A DNA stretch of 33,182 bases. It comes from Bacteroidia bacterium (GTDB taxonomy: Bacteria; Bacteroidota; Bacteroidia; Chitinophagales; UBA2359). Below are positions 2,591 to 25,303 of the stretch, piece by piece. The first letter of the stretch is position 1, and each line of letters begins with the position of its first letter. A model generated the notes under the pieces. The model did not search any database, had not been told where the DNA came from, and saw only the letters and a list, made by a program, of their open reading frames with translations. The DNA lies in assembly GCA_030427245.1 (NCBI GenBank), contig JAUHXA010000076.1:1-33182 (forward strand). Reading direction: 5' to 3'. The position numbers and the translations under genes were made by a program.

Positions 2591-3577
2591 TTAATTCTTT
2601 TCTTTATTCAAAAAGAATCCTTTCTCTTCTTCAAAATCCAAAAGTGGATACTCGTTTTCCAGACCTTCAATATACTTCAATTGCTGCTGTAAAAAACGCT
2701 GGTGCGCTTCACTATTGGGGTTTCGAGGACGGTGATTTTTAGCATTCAAAATCTTCTCGATTCTTTCCTTCAATTTTCCTGTTTGCTGGTCAAAATATGC
2801 TTCTTGAAATTTTCCCCAAATATAATCAATTGCCGTTGAGGTCGGATGTAACATGTCCGATTCATAAAACCGATAATCTCTCAAATCGTCCATCATGATT
2901 TCGTAAGCAGGAAAATAATTGACCTTCTTCAATTTTGCCTTCAATTCATGTATTGCCACCAAAAGAGTCGCCTTACTCAACTGGTTGTCAATCGCTCCAT
3001 TTTTCCAATGACGAATCGGACTAAGCGTAAAAATGATTTGCAGCTTGGGATTCAATTGTTGTATTTGCTTCAAAGTCGGCGAAAGCACTTCTACGATGTC
3101 TTTGACAGAGATGCGATAGTGGTCAAATTGTTTCTGTGGAATCTTGTGACAATTCGCCACAATTTCACCCGATTCTTTCCATTGATAGACAAAAGCTGTT
3201 CCCAATGTGAGCAGCAAAAAGTCTGCTTGCTTCAAAAAAATACTCGCCGTTTTTAGCTCTTGATTGATGTTTTGGAGACAAGTATTTTGATTCTTGTGAG
3301 AAAAATGTCCATGGTGCGCCCAGCTATGCCATTGTTCATTGAAGTGATGCAGTTCATCGGAGTTGTACGGCTTTGCAGCAATCAATCTTTGAAGGCAAGT
3401 ATTGATGGACAGGGGATTGTATAGTATTCCAAAAGGATTCACCATTGAAGGGAATTTTAGCTTTTGCATTTGATTCCCAATATTTTCCGTAAAACAAGAA
3501 CCGATGAATAGACTCTTATTGTTGTAGGTGATTTTTTGAAGCGAAGGGGAAATGTTTATTTCGGTTCTAAACTTCAT
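2591..3577 (-). CDS. GSCFA-domain protein (SGNH-hydrolase-like fold)
   Basis: The product has 328 residues and carries the family signature GSCFTENIG at ~26-34, which names the GSCFA domain, a group common in Bacteroidota and related to SGNH/GDSL esterases. Further family-like blocks are NPFGILYNP (~47-55), LTLGTAFVY (~123-131) and DMLHPTSTAIDYIW near residue 240, the last resembling the C-terminal DxxH catalytic block of SGNH hydrolases. No signal peptide is visible, so it is probably cytoplasmic. The substrate is unknown. Its ATG overlaps the TGA of the upstream dehydratase gene by four bases (ATGA, 3574-3577), so the two are very probably translationally coupled. Confidence 0.9.
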   Translation of the reverse strand: MKFRTEINISPSLQKITYNNKSLFIGSCFTENIGNQMQKLKFPSMVNPFGILYNPLSINTCLQRLIAAKPYNSDELHHFNEQWHSWAHHGHFSHKNQNTCLQNINQELKTASIFLKQADFLLLTLGTAFVYQWKESGEIVANCHKIPQKQFDHYRISVKDIVEVLSPTLKQIQQLNPKLQIIFTLSPIRHWKNGAIDNQLSKATLLVAIHELKAKLKKVNYFPAYEIMMDDLRDYRFYESDMLHPTSTAIDYIWGKFQEAYFDQQTGKLKERIEKILNAKNHRPRNPNSEAHQRFLQQQLKYIEGLENEYPLLDFEEEKGFFLNKEKN

Positions 3578-5166
3578 GATTCAATCTTAAAAACTCTTGC
3601 AAAATAAGTTCCGATTTCTTCGACCAAAGCATCTTTGTTTCCTTCTACTTCAATTCCTGCCAATGCTTTCGCCAAGCGTTTTTTGTACTCCAATTGCATT
3701 TGTCGACCGATTTGGATTCGTTGGGCTTGTGGCGAACCTGCTCCGTGCATGGATTCGGTGAGATAGCCAACGGCATTGCGTCCGAGGGTCATGTTTTCAA
3801 TAAGGCGCAAAATTCTCATTCTGTCTTCGGTCTTTACCTCTGCTCTTCCCTGCAAATATTTACGAATCAACTTGCCAATTTCGGGGTGATTGAGTTCTTG
3901 TTCGGAAGGCATTGTAGCGACCAATCCGCCTGCCAAGTCTTGTGCCAATCGTCCGATTTCGTAGGGCATTTTGGTGACATGGTGTTTGCAGACATTCGAT
4001 AACATTCCATCACAAATATATGCGCCCGATTTGGTGGCGTATCCTTGATGTGAAGAGGCGATTCCGGTGGCATAAATGGTTTCGTTGAGGTGGGTCATTT
4101 CGACCAGTTTGTCTTTGATGTGCGATACTTTTGGGATTCCATTGTAGTCCGCAATCGTTGCGGCTGCGCCAATCAACACATCTCCCAACCCGCTTTTGCA
4201 GACATAGCTTCGTCGGTGATATGCCGTAAAACGCTCTACCAACATGGATGCAAAATCGTATTCTCCATCCATAAAAATATACTTATTGGGAATGAATACT
4301 TCGTCAAAAATCACCATTGCTTCTTGTCCGCCATATTTGGCATTTCCTACGTCAATGCTTCCTCCTTCCATACTCCGCATATCACAACTTTGTCGCCCAT
4401 AAATGTAGGTAATTCCTTTGGCATCAACAGGTACTGCTCCAACAATGGCAAAATCTTTGTCGCCTTCACCAAGTCGCATGGTGGGCATTATCAACATCCA
4501 ATGCGAATTGATGCAGCCTGTTTGGTGGGCTTTTGCGCCACTAACATATACGCCTTCATCGGTTCGACGGGTGACGTGAACGAACATATCTGGGTCTGCT
4601 TGTTGGTGCGGGGGAAGGCTTCGGTCTCCTTTTACATCGGTCATCGCACCACCGATTACTTGGTTGTATCGGTGTGTGAGGGTAATAAATTCTTTGAAGC
4701 GTTGGTGGTAAGTGGTCTTGTATTTTTCGTCTATTTCATAGCTGACGGAGTATAGAGAATTGAAGGCATCCATTCCGACACAACGTTGGAAACAAGTGCC
4801 TGTTAGTTGTCCCAGTTTTCGTTGCATTTTGTTTTGCATCACCATGTCATTGGCGCTTGTGACAACGTGCAAAAAACGACTGATTCGCTCGCCTGTGAAG
4901 GGTGATATAACGGAAGCCAATTCGGGGGCTTCTATTGCTAAGTCGTAGGTTCGAGCCAAAGCATTGATGGAAGGGCGAATCATGGGATGGTCCACAGGTT
5001 CTTTGACCAGTTCTCCAAAAAGATAAATCGTCAAATCTCGATTTCGAAGGCTGTTGATATAGTCTTCACCTGTCGTGATTTTTTTATATTTAATAGAGGG
5101 TTTTGAGTTTGTTAGCATTGGAGTTCTATAATTTTGAAGAGGGAACAATTGTTTTTTAGCTTCCAT
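3574..5166 (-). CDS. abfD: 4-hydroxybutyryl-CoA dehydratase-like enzyme (HpaB/AbfD family)
   Basis: Predicted FAD and [4Fe-4S] enzyme of the 4-hydroxyphenylacetate-3-hydroxylase superfamily, 530 residues. It matches 4-hydroxybutyryl-CoA dehydratase/vinylacetyl-CoA isomerase rather than the HpaB monooxygenases. The cluster-ligand motif C125-x3-C129 sits in TCFQRCVGMDAFN, H317 and C323 in YHRRSYVCK, and the blocks AKAHQTG, IYGRQSCD and TESMHGAGSPQAQRI are all present. In the clostridial enzyme, as I recall it, the ligands are C99, C103, H292 and C299 with Y296 nearby. The Tyr is kept here (Y321), but only five residues separate the His and Cys instead of six. A promoter (TTG-N18-TATCTTTG) lies at 5189-5217, which supports the ATG at 5166; an internal ATG at 5118 aligns better with the family N-terminus. 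Downstream it is coupled to the GSCFA gene. The substrate is inferred from the family. Confidence 0.8.
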   Translation of the reverse strand: MEAKKQLFPLQNYRTPMLTNSKPSIKYKKITTGEDYINSLRNRDLTIYLFGELVKEPVDHPMIRPSINALARTYDLAIEAPELASVISPFTGERISRFLHVVTSANDMVMQNKMQRKLGQLTGTCFQRCVGMDAFNSLYSVSYEIDEKYKTTYHQRFKEFITLTHRYNQVIGGAMTDVKGDRSLPPHQQADPDMFVHVTRRTDEGVYVSGAKAHQTGCINSHWMLIMPTMRLGEGDKDFAIVGAVPVDAKGITYIYGRQSCDMRSMEGGSIDVGNAKYGGQEAMVIFDEVFIPNKYIFMDGEYDFASMLVERFTAYHRRSYVCKSGLGDVLIGAAATIADYNGIPKVSHIKDKLVEMTHLNETIYATGIASSHQGYATKSGAYICDGMLSNVCKHHVTKMPYEIGRLAQDLAGGLVATMPSEQELNHPEIGKLIRKYLQGRAEVKTEDRMRILRLIENMTLGRNAVGYLTESMHGAGSPQAQRIQIGRQMQLEYKKRLAKALAGIEVEGNKDALVEEIGTYFARVFKIES

Positions 5167-20064: not shown

Positions 20065-20385
20065 ATGTCAAGACAAAATAAAGAAATGACAATATTCGGA
20101 GATAGAATTAGGAAATTAAGACAATCCAAATGCCTCAAACTAAGGGAATTGGCTGCAAGTTTAGATATCGATTCTGCTACTCTAAGTAAAATTGAAAGAG
20201 GAAAAAGAAATGCTTCTAAAAATCAGGTAATCCTTCTTGCAAAAACTCTTAATGAAAATTTATCTGAATTAAAATCCTTATGGCTTGCTAATAAAATTTA
20301 TGAGATTATTGGCGAGGAAGAAGAAGCACTAGCAGCAATTCAAGTGGCAGAAAAAGAAATAAAGTATCAATCAAAACAAAAATAA
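20065..20385 (+). CDS. XRE-family regulator, probable RM controller (C) protein
   Basis: DNA-binding protein of 106 residues. An XRE/Cro-type helix-turn-helix fills residues ~10-65 (FGDRIRKLRQSKCLKLRELA, then ASLDIDSATLSKIERGKRNAS); an acidic, helical tail (~72-106) follows. Small XRE proteins immediately upstream of restriction-modification genes usually act as controller proteins, delaying nuclease expression until the DNA is methylated. Its stop codon overlaps the next ATG by one base (TAATG, 20383-20387), so translation is coupled to the RMS gene. The promoter is almost at the start codon. The role as controller is inferred from context. Confidence 0.8.
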   Translation: MSRQNKEMTIFGDRIRKLRQSKCLKLRELAASLDIDSATLSKIERGKRNASKNQVILLAKTLNENLSELKSLWLANKIYEIIGEEEEALAAIQVAEKEIKYQSKQK

Positions 20386-22814
20386 TGACAAAAAAAACTG
20401 ATAAAATAATTGACTATATTTCTGGCTTAGAAGTACATGCAACCCCAGAAGAAATGGAGGCAGTTCAAGTGTTCTCAAAACAACTTGTTGAAGACTATGG
20501 ATACGATAAAACACAAATTACTACACACCCACAATTTAGAGTAAAATCAAGTCCTTCAGATACAAGGGGTAAATACCCAGTTGACATTGCCGTTTTTAAA
20601 GATAGCAAGAAGAAAGACGATGAGGTTTACATAATTATTGAATGTAAGAAAAAGAACAGAAAAGATGGTAGAGGACAGTTAGAAGATTATTTGAGACTTT
20701 CAAGAGCATCCCTAGGGGTTTGGTTCAATGGCGAAGAAAGACTGTTCTTGAGAAAATTTGAGAAGTCGGGAAAAGTACTATTTGAAGAAATTCCTAACAT
20801 ACCATTAGTAAATCAAAGAGTTGAAGATATTGGTAAATTCAAGAAAAAGGAATTAAGACCAACTCATAACCTTAAAGCAATTTTCAAATCTATAAGAAAT
20901 CACCTAGCTGCAAATACTATCGGTGCTACTCGTGATGAAGTTCTGGCACAGCAATTAATAAACCTAATATTCTGTAAACTATATGATGAAAAATTTACTC
21001 TCCCAAATGAGAATGTAAGATTTCGAGCGGGAGTTGATGAATCGCCAAAAGAAATTGAAAAAAGGATAAAAAATTTATTCAACGAAGTAAAGAAAAATCA
21101 GAAAGAAGTTTTTGCGGAGGAAGATAAAATCACATTAGACACCAATTCTATTGTTTATGTCATTGGCGAACTTCAAAATTATTCTTTAATGAATAGTGAA
21201 AGGGATGTAGTAGCCGATGCTTTCGAAACATTTATTGGACATGCACTAAAAGGAGGTCAGGGTCAATTTTTTACGCCAAGAAACGTAGTGAAAATGATTG
21301 TTGACATTTTGAATCCTAGTGAAAAAGATAGAGTCATTGATCCTGCTTGTGGAAGTGGTGGTTTTCTTATCGAATCCTTAAAGCATGTTTGGGCTGAATC
21401 TGAGGAAAAATATAAGCAGTTGGAATGGAGTCAAGCCCAAATAGAGAAGAAAAAGATAGAGACAGCAACAAATAATTTTAGAGGAATTGATAAAGATTAT
21501 TTTTTAAGTAAGGTTGCAAAAGCTTATATGAATTTAGTGGGTGATGGTACAACAGGGATATTTTGTGAAGACAGTTTGGAAAACCCAAGCAACTGGTCTC
21601 AAGAAACTCAAACCAAAATCAAAATGGGCGAATTCGATATACTAATAACCAATCCTCCATTTGGTGCTAAAATTCCTGTAACTGGAGAGGCTAAAATAAA
21701 ACAATTCGATTTTGGATATAAATATAAATTTGATAAAAAAAGCAAAAAATGGATTAAAACCAATAAATTAAAAACAAGGGAGGAACCCCAAGTTTTATTT
21801 ATCGAAAGATGTTTGAATTTGTTAAAGGATGGTGGTAAAATGGCAATGGTTCTTCCAAGTGGAATTTTAGGAAATGAAAGAGGAAAATATTTGAGAGAAT
21901 ATATTTTGGAGAAAGGAAATTTGTTTGCGATTGTTGAATTACCATTTGAAACTTTTAGTCCTAACGTTACAATCAACACAAGTGTCCTATTCATCCAAAA
22001 GGGAAAGAGTATAAAACAAAAAGATTTATTCATTTCGATAAATGAATATTGCGGACACGATAAAAAAGGACGACCAATTGACCAAGATGATATTCCCCTT
22101 GTAGCTTCAATATATAAATCTAAAAAAACTAATTCAAACAATTTTTTCATTAATCCTGCTTTATTAGAGCATAGTTTTATAGCAAAAAGGTATTTACAGA
22201 AATATGTTGATAACCTCGAAGTTTTAAAAAAGAGTAAATACCCATTGGTTACCTTGGGTTCATTGATAAAAACGGTTCACAATGGCGCAAACATTGACGA
22301 TGCTTCAATATATGTAGAACAGGGAGAAGGCATTCCTTACATACTTGTAAAAACAATTACTAAAGAAGGAATTAACTTTGAAAATCTAAAGTACATTAGA
22401 AAAGATTTGATTACCAATAAAGATGTTCTAAAAAATACTGTTTCGGAAGAAACAATAGTCATGACTAGGGCAGGCAATGCGGGAATTTCAGCTAATATCC
22501 CACCAGATTTAGTGAATGGTATTGCATCGGGTTTTTTAATTAATATTCATGTTAACTTAAAAAAAGTCAATCAATATTATTTAGTATCCTTTTTGAACTC
22601 AAAATTTGGGCAACTTCAGTTAGAAAGAATATCAAGTGGTTCGATATTACAAAGTATTCGTTCCTCAGATTTAAAGCAAATTATGATTGTCTTACCTCCT
22701 TTAGAGATTCAGAATAAAATTGGAGACAAAACTAAAAAGGCTGTTTATGCGAAAGCTGAAACAAGAGCGAAAATAAAAAATGCCGATAGTGACATTGCAT
22801 CTTTGATGAAGTAA
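20385..22814 (+). CDS. Single-chain restriction-modification protein (HsdR_N nuclease, N6-MTase, TRD)
   Basis: Protein of 809 residues joining three activities, as in type IIG or single-chain type I-like enzymes. Residues ~1-130 are an HsdR-N-type PD-(D/E)XK nuclease: D67 (PVDIAV), E86-x-K88 (IIIECKKKN) and the QxxxY motif Q98/Y102 (GRGQLEDYL). Residues ~150-600 are an HsdM-like adenine methyltransferase: GQGQFFTPRNVV, SAM motif I D319PACGSGGF, catalytic N423PPF. Residues ~615-809 hold one target-recognition domain of HsdS type and a final coiled coil (PPLEIQNKIGDKTKKAVYAKAE). It should methylate and cut at one site; the sequence recognised is unknown. A and T-rich codons (AAA, AAT, ATA) seem commoner than in neighbours, suggesting acquisition. 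No frameshift is seen. The next gene starts 35 bases on. Confidence 0.9.
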   Translation: MTKKTDKIIDYISGLEVHATPEEMEAVQVFSKQLVEDYGYDKTQITTHPQFRVKSSPSDTRGKYPVDIAVFKDSKKKDDEVYIIIECKKKNRKDGRGQLEDYLRLSRASLGVWFNGEERLFLRKFEKSGKVLFEEIPNIPLVNQRVEDIGKFKKKELRPTHNLKAIFKSIRNHLAANTIGATRDEVLAQQLINLIFCKLYDEKFTLPNENVRFRAGVDESPKEIEKRIKNLFNEVKKNQKEVFAEEDKITLDTNSIVYVIGELQNYSLMNSERDVVADAFETFIGHALKGGQGQFFTPRNVVKMIVDILNPSEKDRVIDPACGSGGFLIESLKHVWAESEEKYKQLEWSQAQIEKKKIETATNNFRGIDKDYFLSKVAKAYMNLVGDGTTGIFCEDSLENPSNWSQETQTKIKMGEFDILITNPPFGAKIPVTGEAKIKQFDFGYKYKFDKKSKKWIKTNKLKTREEPQVLFIERCLNLLKDGGKMAMVLPSGILGNERGKYLREYILEKGNLFAIVELPFETFSPNVTINTSVLFIQKGKSIKQKDLFISINEYCGHDKKGRPIDQDDIPLVASIYKSKKTNSNNFFINPALLEHSFIAKRYLQKYVDNLEVLKKSKYPLVTLGSLIKTVHNGANIDDASIYVEQGEGIPYILVKTITKEGINFENLKYIRKDLITNKDVLKNTVSEETIVMTRAGNAGISANIPPDLVNGIASGFLINIHVNLKKVNQYYLVSFLNSKFGQLQLERISSGSILQSIRSSDLKQIMIVLPPLEIQNKIGDKTKKAVYAKAETRAKIKNADSDIASLMK

Positions 22815-22849: not shown

Positions 22850-25303
22850 ATGAAAAACAACTACCTTCAAACACTTTTGTACTGTTTTTTTCTACTCTTT
22901 CTTTTATCCAACTGCAATACGCCACAGGCCACAACTGCAACCCTCTCCAAAAATTCTATTGAAGCCAAAACCGCAGGAATGGAAAAAATGGAGGGATATT
23001 TTCCATTTTATTGGGATGCCAAGTCGGGAAAAATATGGTTGGAAATCAATCAACTAAACACAGAATTTTTATACGTCAATTCTTTGGCAGCAGGTGTAGG
23101 CTCTAATGACATTGGATTAGACAGGGGACAGTTGGGCGGTGAGCGAGTGGTCAAGTTTGTGAAAACAGGCCCAAAAGTTTTACTGCTGCAACCGAATTAT
23201 CGCTACCGAGCCGAAAGCGACAATGTGGAAGAACAAAAATCAGTGGAAGAAGCCTTTGCTCAATCGGTATTATGGGGTTTTGAAACTGCTGCAGAATCTG
23301 ACGGTCGTGTATTGGTAGATGCAACGAGCTTTTTACTGCAAGATGCCCACGGAGTTGCCGAAACATTGAAGCGAAGAGAGCAGGGAAGCTACAGTTTAGA
23401 CGCCTCACGTTCTGCCATTTTTCTACCCCGCACCAAAAATTTTCCACAAAACACGGAGTTTGAAGCGACCCTTACCTTTGTTGGCAAGCCCACAGGCGGC
23501 TATATTCGGGCAGTTGTACCAAGTGCCGAAGCGGTAACTGTTCGCCAACACCACTCTTTTGTGCAGCTACCCGATGATGAATACCAACCTCGAAAGTATG
23601 ATCCTCGAAGCGGTTATTTCCCTTTGAGTTATTACGATTATGCAACGCCTATTGATCAACCCCTTCAAAAACAATTTATTTACCGCCACCGACTACAAAA
23701 GAAAGATCCGATAGCAAGGGTAAGCGAAGCTGTCGAACCAATTGTATATTACTTAGATAGAGGAACACCAGAACCCATTCGCTCGGCACTCATTGAAGGA
23801 GCGAATTGGTGGAATCAAGCTTTTGAAGCGGCAGGCTACAAAGATGCTTTTCGAGTAGAAATTTTACCTGAAGATGCCGACCCAATGGATGTGCGCTACA
23901 ATTTGATTCAATGGGTACACCGTTCTACAAGAGGATGGTCTTATGGCAGTTCGGTATCTGACCCACGTACAGGCGAAATCATCAAAGGACATGTGAGTTT
24001 GGGTTCGTTGCGGGTTCGTCAAGATTTTTTAATCGCACAGGGTTTGATTGCACCTTATGAAGAAGGCAAAGCGGTTTCTAACGAGATGCAGGAAATGGCT
24101 TTAGCGAGATTGCGGCAACTGTCAGCGCACGAAGTCGGGCATACACTGGGCTTGGCGCACAATTTTGCAGCAAGTGTCAATGGTCGGGCTTCGGTGATGG
24201 ATTATCCCCATCCTTATGTCACGCTTACCAAATCGGGGGATTTGGATTTTTCGCAGGCTTATGATACAGGCATTGGCGAATGGGACAAACGAGCGATTAT
24301 ATATGGTTATCAAGACTTTCCAGAGGGTGTGGACGAATTGGCGCAAATCATAGAGGAAACCTTGGACATGGGTTTTGGGTATCTATCGGACAGCGATGCC
24401 AGACCTTTTGGGGGCGCACACCCGAATGCCCATCTTTGGGACAATGGCGAATCAGCTATTGAAGAGCTAAACCGATTGTTGGAAGTTCGTAAGGTTGCTT
24501 TGCAGCGATTCGGCAATGCCAATATTCCTTTTGAAACACCTATGGCGAGTTTGGAAGAAGTTTTAGTACCGTTATACTTGTCACATCGCTATCAAACAGA
24601 AGCGGTTGCAAAAATAGTGGGAGGCTTGGATTATACGTATGCGATGCGTGGCGATGACCAGATTCCGACTCAATTATTACCTTCTAAACTTCAAAAAGAG
24701 GCATTGGAATCACTTTTAAGCTTGATAGACGCAGAATTTTTAGCACTACCCGAACACATTTTGGAACTGATTCCACCTAAGCCAATGGGTCTTTATCGTA
24801 CCCGTGAAAGCTTCAATGCTCGAACAGGCATGACGTTTGACCCTATTGCAGCCGCCGAAAGTGCTATCAATCCTGTCATAGAATTGCTGCTACATCCTCA
24901 ACGTGCAGCAAGATTAGTAGAATATCATGCTCGTTTTGATACTTTGCCAAGTTTTGAAGAAGTGATTGACCAACTATTTTCTGCTACTTGGAAAAAAAAT
25001 TACCCTAATGCCTACCATGCCGAAATTGGACGAGTTGCAGATAGATTGGCCTTACATCATTTGCTTCAATTAGCTGCAAACGAATCCATTGCAGGACAGG
25101 TTCGTGCGATTGCTTTATGGAAGGTAAACGAATTGGAAAATTGGCTTCAATCCCAATTGAAGAGAATTTCGTCTTCTTCCGATAAAGCACACTATACGCT
25201 TGCCATTGCAGATATTCGCCATTTTAGAGAACATCCCGAAAACTTCAAGGTAATGCAGCCTGTTGATATGCCCGATGGATCGCCAATTGGTTGTGGACAT
25301 TGA
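22850..25303 (+). CDS. Zinc-dependent metzincin-type metalloprotease lipoprotein
   Basis: Secreted protease of 817 residues anchored as a lipoprotein (FLLFLLSNC with Cys after LLSN). The metzincin motif HExxHxxGxxH is complete: H427, E428, H431 and H437 in HEVGHTLGLAHNF, with the Met-turn at SVMDYPHP. N-terminal ~45-330 resembles the DUF5117/DUF5118 beta region found with these proteases in Bacteroidota, and the ~520-800 part their DUF4953-like helical domain; I call these from pattern, not a search. It starts 35 bases after the RMS stop, without an obvious promoter of its own. Repeat copy 2 begins 44 bases after its stop codon. Confidence 0.88.
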   Translation: MKNNYLQTLLYCFFLLFLLSNCNTPQATTATLSKNSIEAKTAGMEKMEGYFPFYWDAKSGKIWLEINQLNTEFLYVNSLAAGVGSNDIGLDRGQLGGERVVKFVKTGPKVLLLQPNYRYRAESDNVEEQKSVEEAFAQSVLWGFETAAESDGRVLVDATSFLLQDAHGVAETLKRREQGSYSLDASRSAIFLPRTKNFPQNTEFEATLTFVGKPTGGYIRAVVPSAEAVTVRQHHSFVQLPDDEYQPRKYDPRSGYFPLSYYDYATPIDQPLQKQFIYRHRLQKKDPIARVSEAVEPIVYYLDRGTPEPIRSALIEGANWWNQAFEAAGYKDAFRVEILPEDADPMDVRYNLIQWVHRSTRGWSYGSSVSDPRTGEIIKGHVSLGSLRVRQDFLIAQGLIAPYEEGKAVSNEMQEMALARLRQLSAHEVGHTLGLAHNFAASVNGRASVMDYPHPYVTLTKSGDLDFSQAYDTGIGEWDKRAIIYGYQDFPEGVDELAQIIEETLDMGFGYLSDSDARPFGGAHPNAHLWDNGESAIEELNRLLEVRKVALQRFGNANIPFETPMASLEEVLVPLYLSHRYQTEAVAKIVGGLDYTYAMRGDDQIPTQLLPSKLQKEALESLLSLIDAEFLALPEHILELIPPKPMGLYRTRESFNARTGMTFDPIAAAESAINPVIELLLHPQRAARLVEYHARFDTLPSFEEVIDQLFSATWKKNYPNAYHAEIGRVADRLALHHLLQLAANESIAGQVRAIALWKVNELENWLQSQLKRISSSSDKAHYTLAIADIRHFREHPENFKVMQPVDMPDGSPIGCGH

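Follow-up and report, generated by a model that had tools for sequence, protein, structure and literature searches.

The dehydratase locus

The window (the whole 33,182-nucleotide stretch of DNA analysed here) carries on its minus strand an uninterrupted open reading frame of 530 amino acids, whose product is a predicted 4-hydroxybutyryl-CoA dehydratase (4HBD). The features of this locus are listed below, with equivalent residues of 1U8V, the structure of AbfD from Clostridium aminobutyricum, given in brackets.

2591–3577, minus strand: GSCFA family gene, downstream of the dehydratase gene and overlapping it by 4 bases
3574–5166, minus strand: 4-hydroxybutyryl-CoA dehydratase gene (predicted)
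3718–3759, minus strand: TESMHGAGSPQAQR motif, residues 470–483 (E471 corresponds to E455)
4195–4218, minus strand: segment H317-RRSYV-C323-K324 with the predicted His and Cys cluster ligands, from codons and alignment
4201–4203, minus strand: V322, the lone residue between Y321 and C323 (two glycines)
4516–4530, minus strand: AHQTG motif, residues 213–217 (T216 corresponds to T190)
4780–4782, minus strand: C129, predicted [4Fe-4S] ligand (aligns with C103)
4792–4794, minus strand: C125, predicted [4Fe-4S] ligand (aligns with C99)

The GSCFA gene may be co-transcribed with the dehydratase gene. Elsewhere in the window, the plus-strand stretch 20065–22814 holds a helix-turn-helix gene and then, with a one-base overlap, a gene for an 809-residue protein with HSDR_N_2, N6_Mtase and Methylase_S domains; the pair resembles a single-chain restriction-modification enzyme accompanied by its controller. 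Just downstream, a plus-strand gene at 22850–25303 encodes an 817-residue DUF5117/DUF4953 protein of the met-zincin type.

Spacing of the predicted cluster ligands

A first-pass annotation of this DNA had drawn attention to the distance between two predicted cluster ligands, counting five residues between H317 and C323 where it gave six between H292 and C299 of the clostridial enzyme. Both counts were borne out. Codons 317–324 read CAC (H), CGA (R), CGA (R), AGC (S), TAT (Y), GTC (V), TGC (C) and AAA (K), leaving five intervening residues, and the aligned segment of 1U8V, H292-RQSYGG-C299, has six. C125, C129, H317, Y321, C323 and K324 all lie at the positions given in that annotation. In our literature search, no paper was found that pairs H292/C299 with the enzyme name, and the spacing may still be discussed in print.

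The ligand set itself is preserved. Residues C99, C103, H292 and C299 of 1U8V, which we take to be its [4Fe-4S] ligands, align with C125, C129, H317 and C323, respectively, and 21 of the 22 positions of 1U8V that we looked up are identical in the window protein, S161 being the only one that differs. Six of the identical positions (T190, E257, Y296, K300, E455 and Q101), presumably active-site residues of AbfD, are also unchanged in 6VJR, the solved enzyme of Nitrosopumilus maritimus. Because the four ligands and the mapped catalytic positions are conserved, nothing points to another substrate.

Similarity to solved dehydratases

The best match to the window protein among PDB sequences was 6VJR (808.8 bits, 71% identity), in which the segment, HRRSYVCK, is the same letter for letter; identity to 1U8V, where the segment reads HRQSYGGCK, was 54–56%. 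Structural comparison of a predicted model (VIA-align) gave the same order, with Z = 54.8 and an rmsd of 1.3 over 450 residues for 6VJR (71% identity) and Z = 50.1 and an rmsd of 1.5 over 450 residues for 1U8V. The mean pLDDT of the model was 81.3, with values below 50 at residues 1–26, 475–488 and 527–529, the second of which overlaps the TESMHGAGSPQAQR motif. Relative to 6VJR, the window protein is ~28 residues longer at its N-terminus, mostly at low model confidence, and its host is a bacterium rather than an autotrophic archaeon.

A search of the window protein against NCBIfam matched no model for 4-hydroxybutyryl-CoA dehydratase. In trees and PDB matches, the protein groups with the solved 4HBD members and apart from HpaB-like proteins. 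Since five residues separate the His ligand from the Cys ligand in 6VJR, deposited as 4HBD, as they do in the window protein, a six-residue spacing does not define the family.

Distribution of short and long segments

HRRSYVCK was present in all 82 of the other loci first fetched (83 of 83 with the window included), a set made up of the best 80 of 430 relatives plus two from a phylum survey and therefore leaning to close kin. The survey was widened to the phylum of a Nitrosopumilus genome (with matches in 94 of 300 genomes, 20 more stretches taken), those of a Gammaproteobacteria-labelled MAG (9 of 398) and a Chloroflexi-labelled MAG (13 of 201), and plasmid records (11 matching, five fetched). 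The resulting alignment comprised 177 rows, duplicates included: 174 loci, the window protein and two PDB chains. One of the loci, L102, encodes a protein 100% identical over 496 aligned residues to the 6VJR chain.

The eight-letter segment occurs in 130 of the 177 rows (115 distinct sequences) and the nine-letter segment in the other 47. All but one of the short rows have HRRSYVCK (n = 129); the exception, from Sphingomonas, has HRASYVCK. The long form is HRQSYGGCK in 1U8V, Fusobacterium and Cetobacterium, and it also occurs in distant rows that lack the cysteine ligands (for example, HRFTAISYK). Loci that we label crenarchaeal-type by inference (L162–L173, from genomes in the Nitrosopumilus phylum) keep the CxxxC and H...C ligands of the window protein but differ from it in having the long segment, HRQGYAGCK or similar, and in lying on a separate tree branch. 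In L154, a distant paralogue without the first CxxxC cysteine, the segment is nine letters long, yet a Cys stands at the sixth position after the His.

The five-residue spacing is thus an ordinary mark of a whole clade of related sequences and not an anomaly of the window protein. The first-pass annotation had suggested that it could alter the [4Fe-4S] site or mark an unusual variant with another substrate; this suggestion is not supported, because alignment with the solved dehydratases shows the same spacing in 6VJR, an outcome that the annotation itself had named as refuting, and the spacing is common to the whole sampled clade. Within the group of the host, the gene is rare: it was found in 3 of 296 genomes of the phylum (the host included) and in 1 of 119 genomes of the order (the host only), and the host genome holds one copy.

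Origin and composition of the short-segment branch

Phylogenetic trees were built without the segment columns and one residue on each side, retaining 82 of the 177 rows in a first tree and 62 in a second, from which 20 distant rows were removed. Omitted rows were L001, L084, L085, L093, L096 and L138, those under 400 residues, and those at least 86% identical to a kept row (seven rows were kept beforehand; L086 was unmatched). L154 was tallied as a long row by segment length in the 82-row tree and was left out of the 62-row tree.

In the 82-row tree, a single branch (SH-aLRT 100) separates the 43 non-redundant short rows from all others, corresponding to one change of segment. The same branch received support of 100/100 in the 62-row tree under LG+C20 and was recovered in 100% of 200 bootstrap trees. 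When the tree was rooted on distant relatives, the short form was nested among long-form rows, and it is therefore best read as the product of a single loss of one residue. By this reading, one of the residues separating the catalytic Tyr from the cluster Cys would have been lost once, in the common ancestor of the branch, through a change from GG to V.

The branch is marked by more than its segment. At 15 sites, including R319 and V322 inside the segment as well as N112, C218, W223 and R231, the 43 short rows carry a residue that is invariant or almost so; none of eight close long rows has it, and no more than one of 11 crenarchaeal-type rows does. At each of these sites, 6VJR carries the residue found in the window protein. 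Its members, by MAG labels as deposited, include ammonia-oxidising archaea (AOA) together with Saprospiraceae, Flavobacteriaceae, Rhodothermaceae, Planctomycetaceae, Myxococcales, Actinomarina/OCS155, Chromatiales, Bradyrhizobium and Sphingomonas, and the nearest named relatives of the window protein are Saprospiraceae MAGs. This mixture of archaea and bacteria suggests horizontal transfer.

Two further observations came from the same survey. Three genomes (G608, G668 and G684; loci L156–L158) each carry a short-form dehydratase with KMHQTG, and immediately adjacent to it an open frame of 483–488 residues encodes another, distant member of the family; L156, the only one of these loci kept in the trees, takes a basal position in the short clade. 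A 2.2-Mb genome from the phylum of the L012 MAG (G1189) holds five very different members of the dehydratase/HpaB family (L140, L151, L153, L154 and L155), of which L154 has an unusual segment, HRLFGTCK, and an incomplete CxxxC motif.

Alternative explanations

A flavin monooxygenase of the HpaB type (HpaB is the oxygenase component of 4-hydroxyphenylacetate 3-monooxygenase) would share the fold of the window protein and would account for its strong Pfam matches to HpaB_N and HpaB. The curated NCBIfam HpaB models, however, score the protein at 135 and 100 bits, far under their cut-offs of 480 and 885, and the HpaB-type monooxygenase chains listed among the structural matches reach at most Z = 37.1 at no more than 22% identity, whereas the two 4HBD structures reach 50.1 and 54.8. 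With the predicted cluster ligands also present, we regard a monooxygenase as very improbable, in agreement with the first-pass annotation, which had preferred a 4-hydroxybutyryl-CoA dehydratase over HpaB. Loss of one codon through a sequencing or assembly error is refuted by independent records and is as good as excluded, the same segment being found in 82 of 82 other loci and in the 6VJR chain.

A variant dehydratase, altered at its [4Fe-4S] site and acting on another substrate, would be in keeping with the 15 clade-fixed sites, R319 and V322 among them. In two loci (L012 and L015), an MttB-type methyltransferase gene lies near the dehydratase gene, so that some members of the clade could use another 4-substituted acyl-CoA. 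Yet 6VJR, 71% identical and with the same segment, was deposited as 4HBD, the mapped catalytic positions are identical, and the agreement of 6VJR at all 15 sites means that these sites cannot signal a departure from the substrate of the AOA enzyme. We consider such a variant unlikely.

The reading we prefer, to which we assign a probability of about 0.92, is that the product is an ordinary 4-hydroxybutyryl-CoA dehydratase of the N. maritimus branch, dependent on FAD and a [4Fe-4S] cluster, with a role that is probably in aerobic catabolism. We infer the cofactor content, activity and host role of the window protein from its sequence, fold match, conserved residues and clade; very probably, it dehydrates 4-hydroxybutyryl-CoA. 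The substrate would bind beside FAD and a [4Fe-4S] cluster with C125, C129, H317 and C323 as its ligands, water would be removed by way of a radical (ketyl) intermediate, and the dehydrated product would then be isomerised to crotonyl-CoA.

Genomic context and physiological role

The host genome has two COX1 (heme-copper oxidase) matches. It has no match to PF02550 (AbfT-type CoA-transferase) or PF00465 (iron alcohol dehydrogenase), two families for which controls were positive in 4 and 13 of 14 genomes, respectively. A single PF13607 match lies in a 297-residue frame that, by its length, we take to be succinyl-CoA synthetase alpha, and no dedicated 4-hydroxybutyrate-activating enzyme was found when this genome was searched for PF02550 and PF13607.

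Gene neighbourhoods were compared between 35 related loci, many of whose flanks are truncated by contig ends, and the initial 9,000 bases of the window. The recurring flank clusters, with families assigned by Pfam on example members, were SDR (13 loci), MaoC (10), acyl-CoA dehydrogenase (8), SSF symporter (5) and enoyl-CoA hydratase (4). None of these clusters was represented in the 9,000 bases compared, where no other gene, including the GSCFA gene, fell in a cluster of at least three loci, and the dehydratase gene has no obvious metabolic neighbour in the window.

The recurring neighbours in relatives fit acyl-CoA catabolism. The host has an oxidase, and neither the CoA-transferase nor the iron alcohol dehydrogenase family of the clostridial pathway was detected in its genome, which argues for aerobic use of 4-hydroxybutyrate over GABA fermentation. 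The enzyme therefore probably serves aerobic catabolism or recycling of 4-hydroxybutyrate, or of a precursor, via crotonyl-CoA, and not a clostridial fermentation of GABA. This role is uncertain because the gene lacks a metabolic neighbour in the window and is rare in its group.

In two Chloroflexi-labelled MAGs, a gene for an MttB-family methyltransferase follows the short-form dehydratase gene (L012, 8109–9614; L015, 7638–9146), directly in L015 and after one small open reading frame in L012. The family was called by Pfam on L015, and L012 is alike by sequence. This neighbour suggests a possible connection to quaternary amines, for example gamma-butyrobetaine.

Oxygen

Across 33 chosen genomes, COX1 was detected in all 15 with the short segment and in 7 of 18 with the long segment (Fisher p = 0.00017, a value that counts genomes and not independent events); one of the seven long-segment matches was weak (G453, E = 5.5e-25). 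The sample was chosen by hand, with one AOA genome (G403) and without clostridia or fusobacteria, and completeness was given for 3 of the 33 genomes, so that some COX1 absences may be false. As the segment changed once, the association amounts to one event, which cannot show cause or isolate the effect of the missing residue.

The title of the 6VJR entry describes the N. maritimus enzyme as oxygen-tolerant. The same term is applied to the AOA enzyme in a passage of PMC11494057, citing a 2020 preprint by DeMirci et al., and in a passage of PMC7554672. A statement in PMC12794621 has the enzymes of the HP/HB cycle in general as oxygen tolerant; such tolerance would include the long-segment crenarchaeal enzymes, which speaks against a simple oxygen story.

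The change from GG to V, together with the other clade-fixed sites, could tentatively be seen as a single ancient adaptation to air that later spread between aerobic bacteria and AOA, an idea that we hold to be possible but rather doubtful. The oxidase association fits it. Structurally, the shorter segment could turn a widened helical turn by the cluster Cys into a regular, tighter-packing helix; the predicted model of the window protein shows the helix continuing without a break over residues 303–341. If the idea is true, the short segment would be part of a package that lets a radical enzyme live with oxygen.

Implications for surveys and for the family

The short segment already has a practical use as a marker. 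The AOA primer hcd-911F, whose sequence is printed in a passage of PMC3620491, translates in that printed form to SYVCKTG and hence lies on the HRRSYVCK segment, so the motif is already in use as an AOA marker. When whole loci were scanned, the primer matched exactly in 4 of 47 archaeal loci and with one mismatch in 12 of 47; among bacterial loci, it matched with one mismatch in 3 of 35 (L011, L025 and L033). It also matches the window with two mismatches at 4190–4209, inside the dehydratase gene. Surveys of AOA with hcd-911F may thus also count bacteria of the short-segment branch.

For the family as a whole, the window protein adds a member to a known group of enzymes. Its missing residue is the mark of a clade, neither a defect nor a sign of new specificity, and HRRSYVCK, as opposed to HRQxYxGCK, offers a cheap sequence mark by which to recognise the branch of the oxygen-tolerant AOA enzyme.
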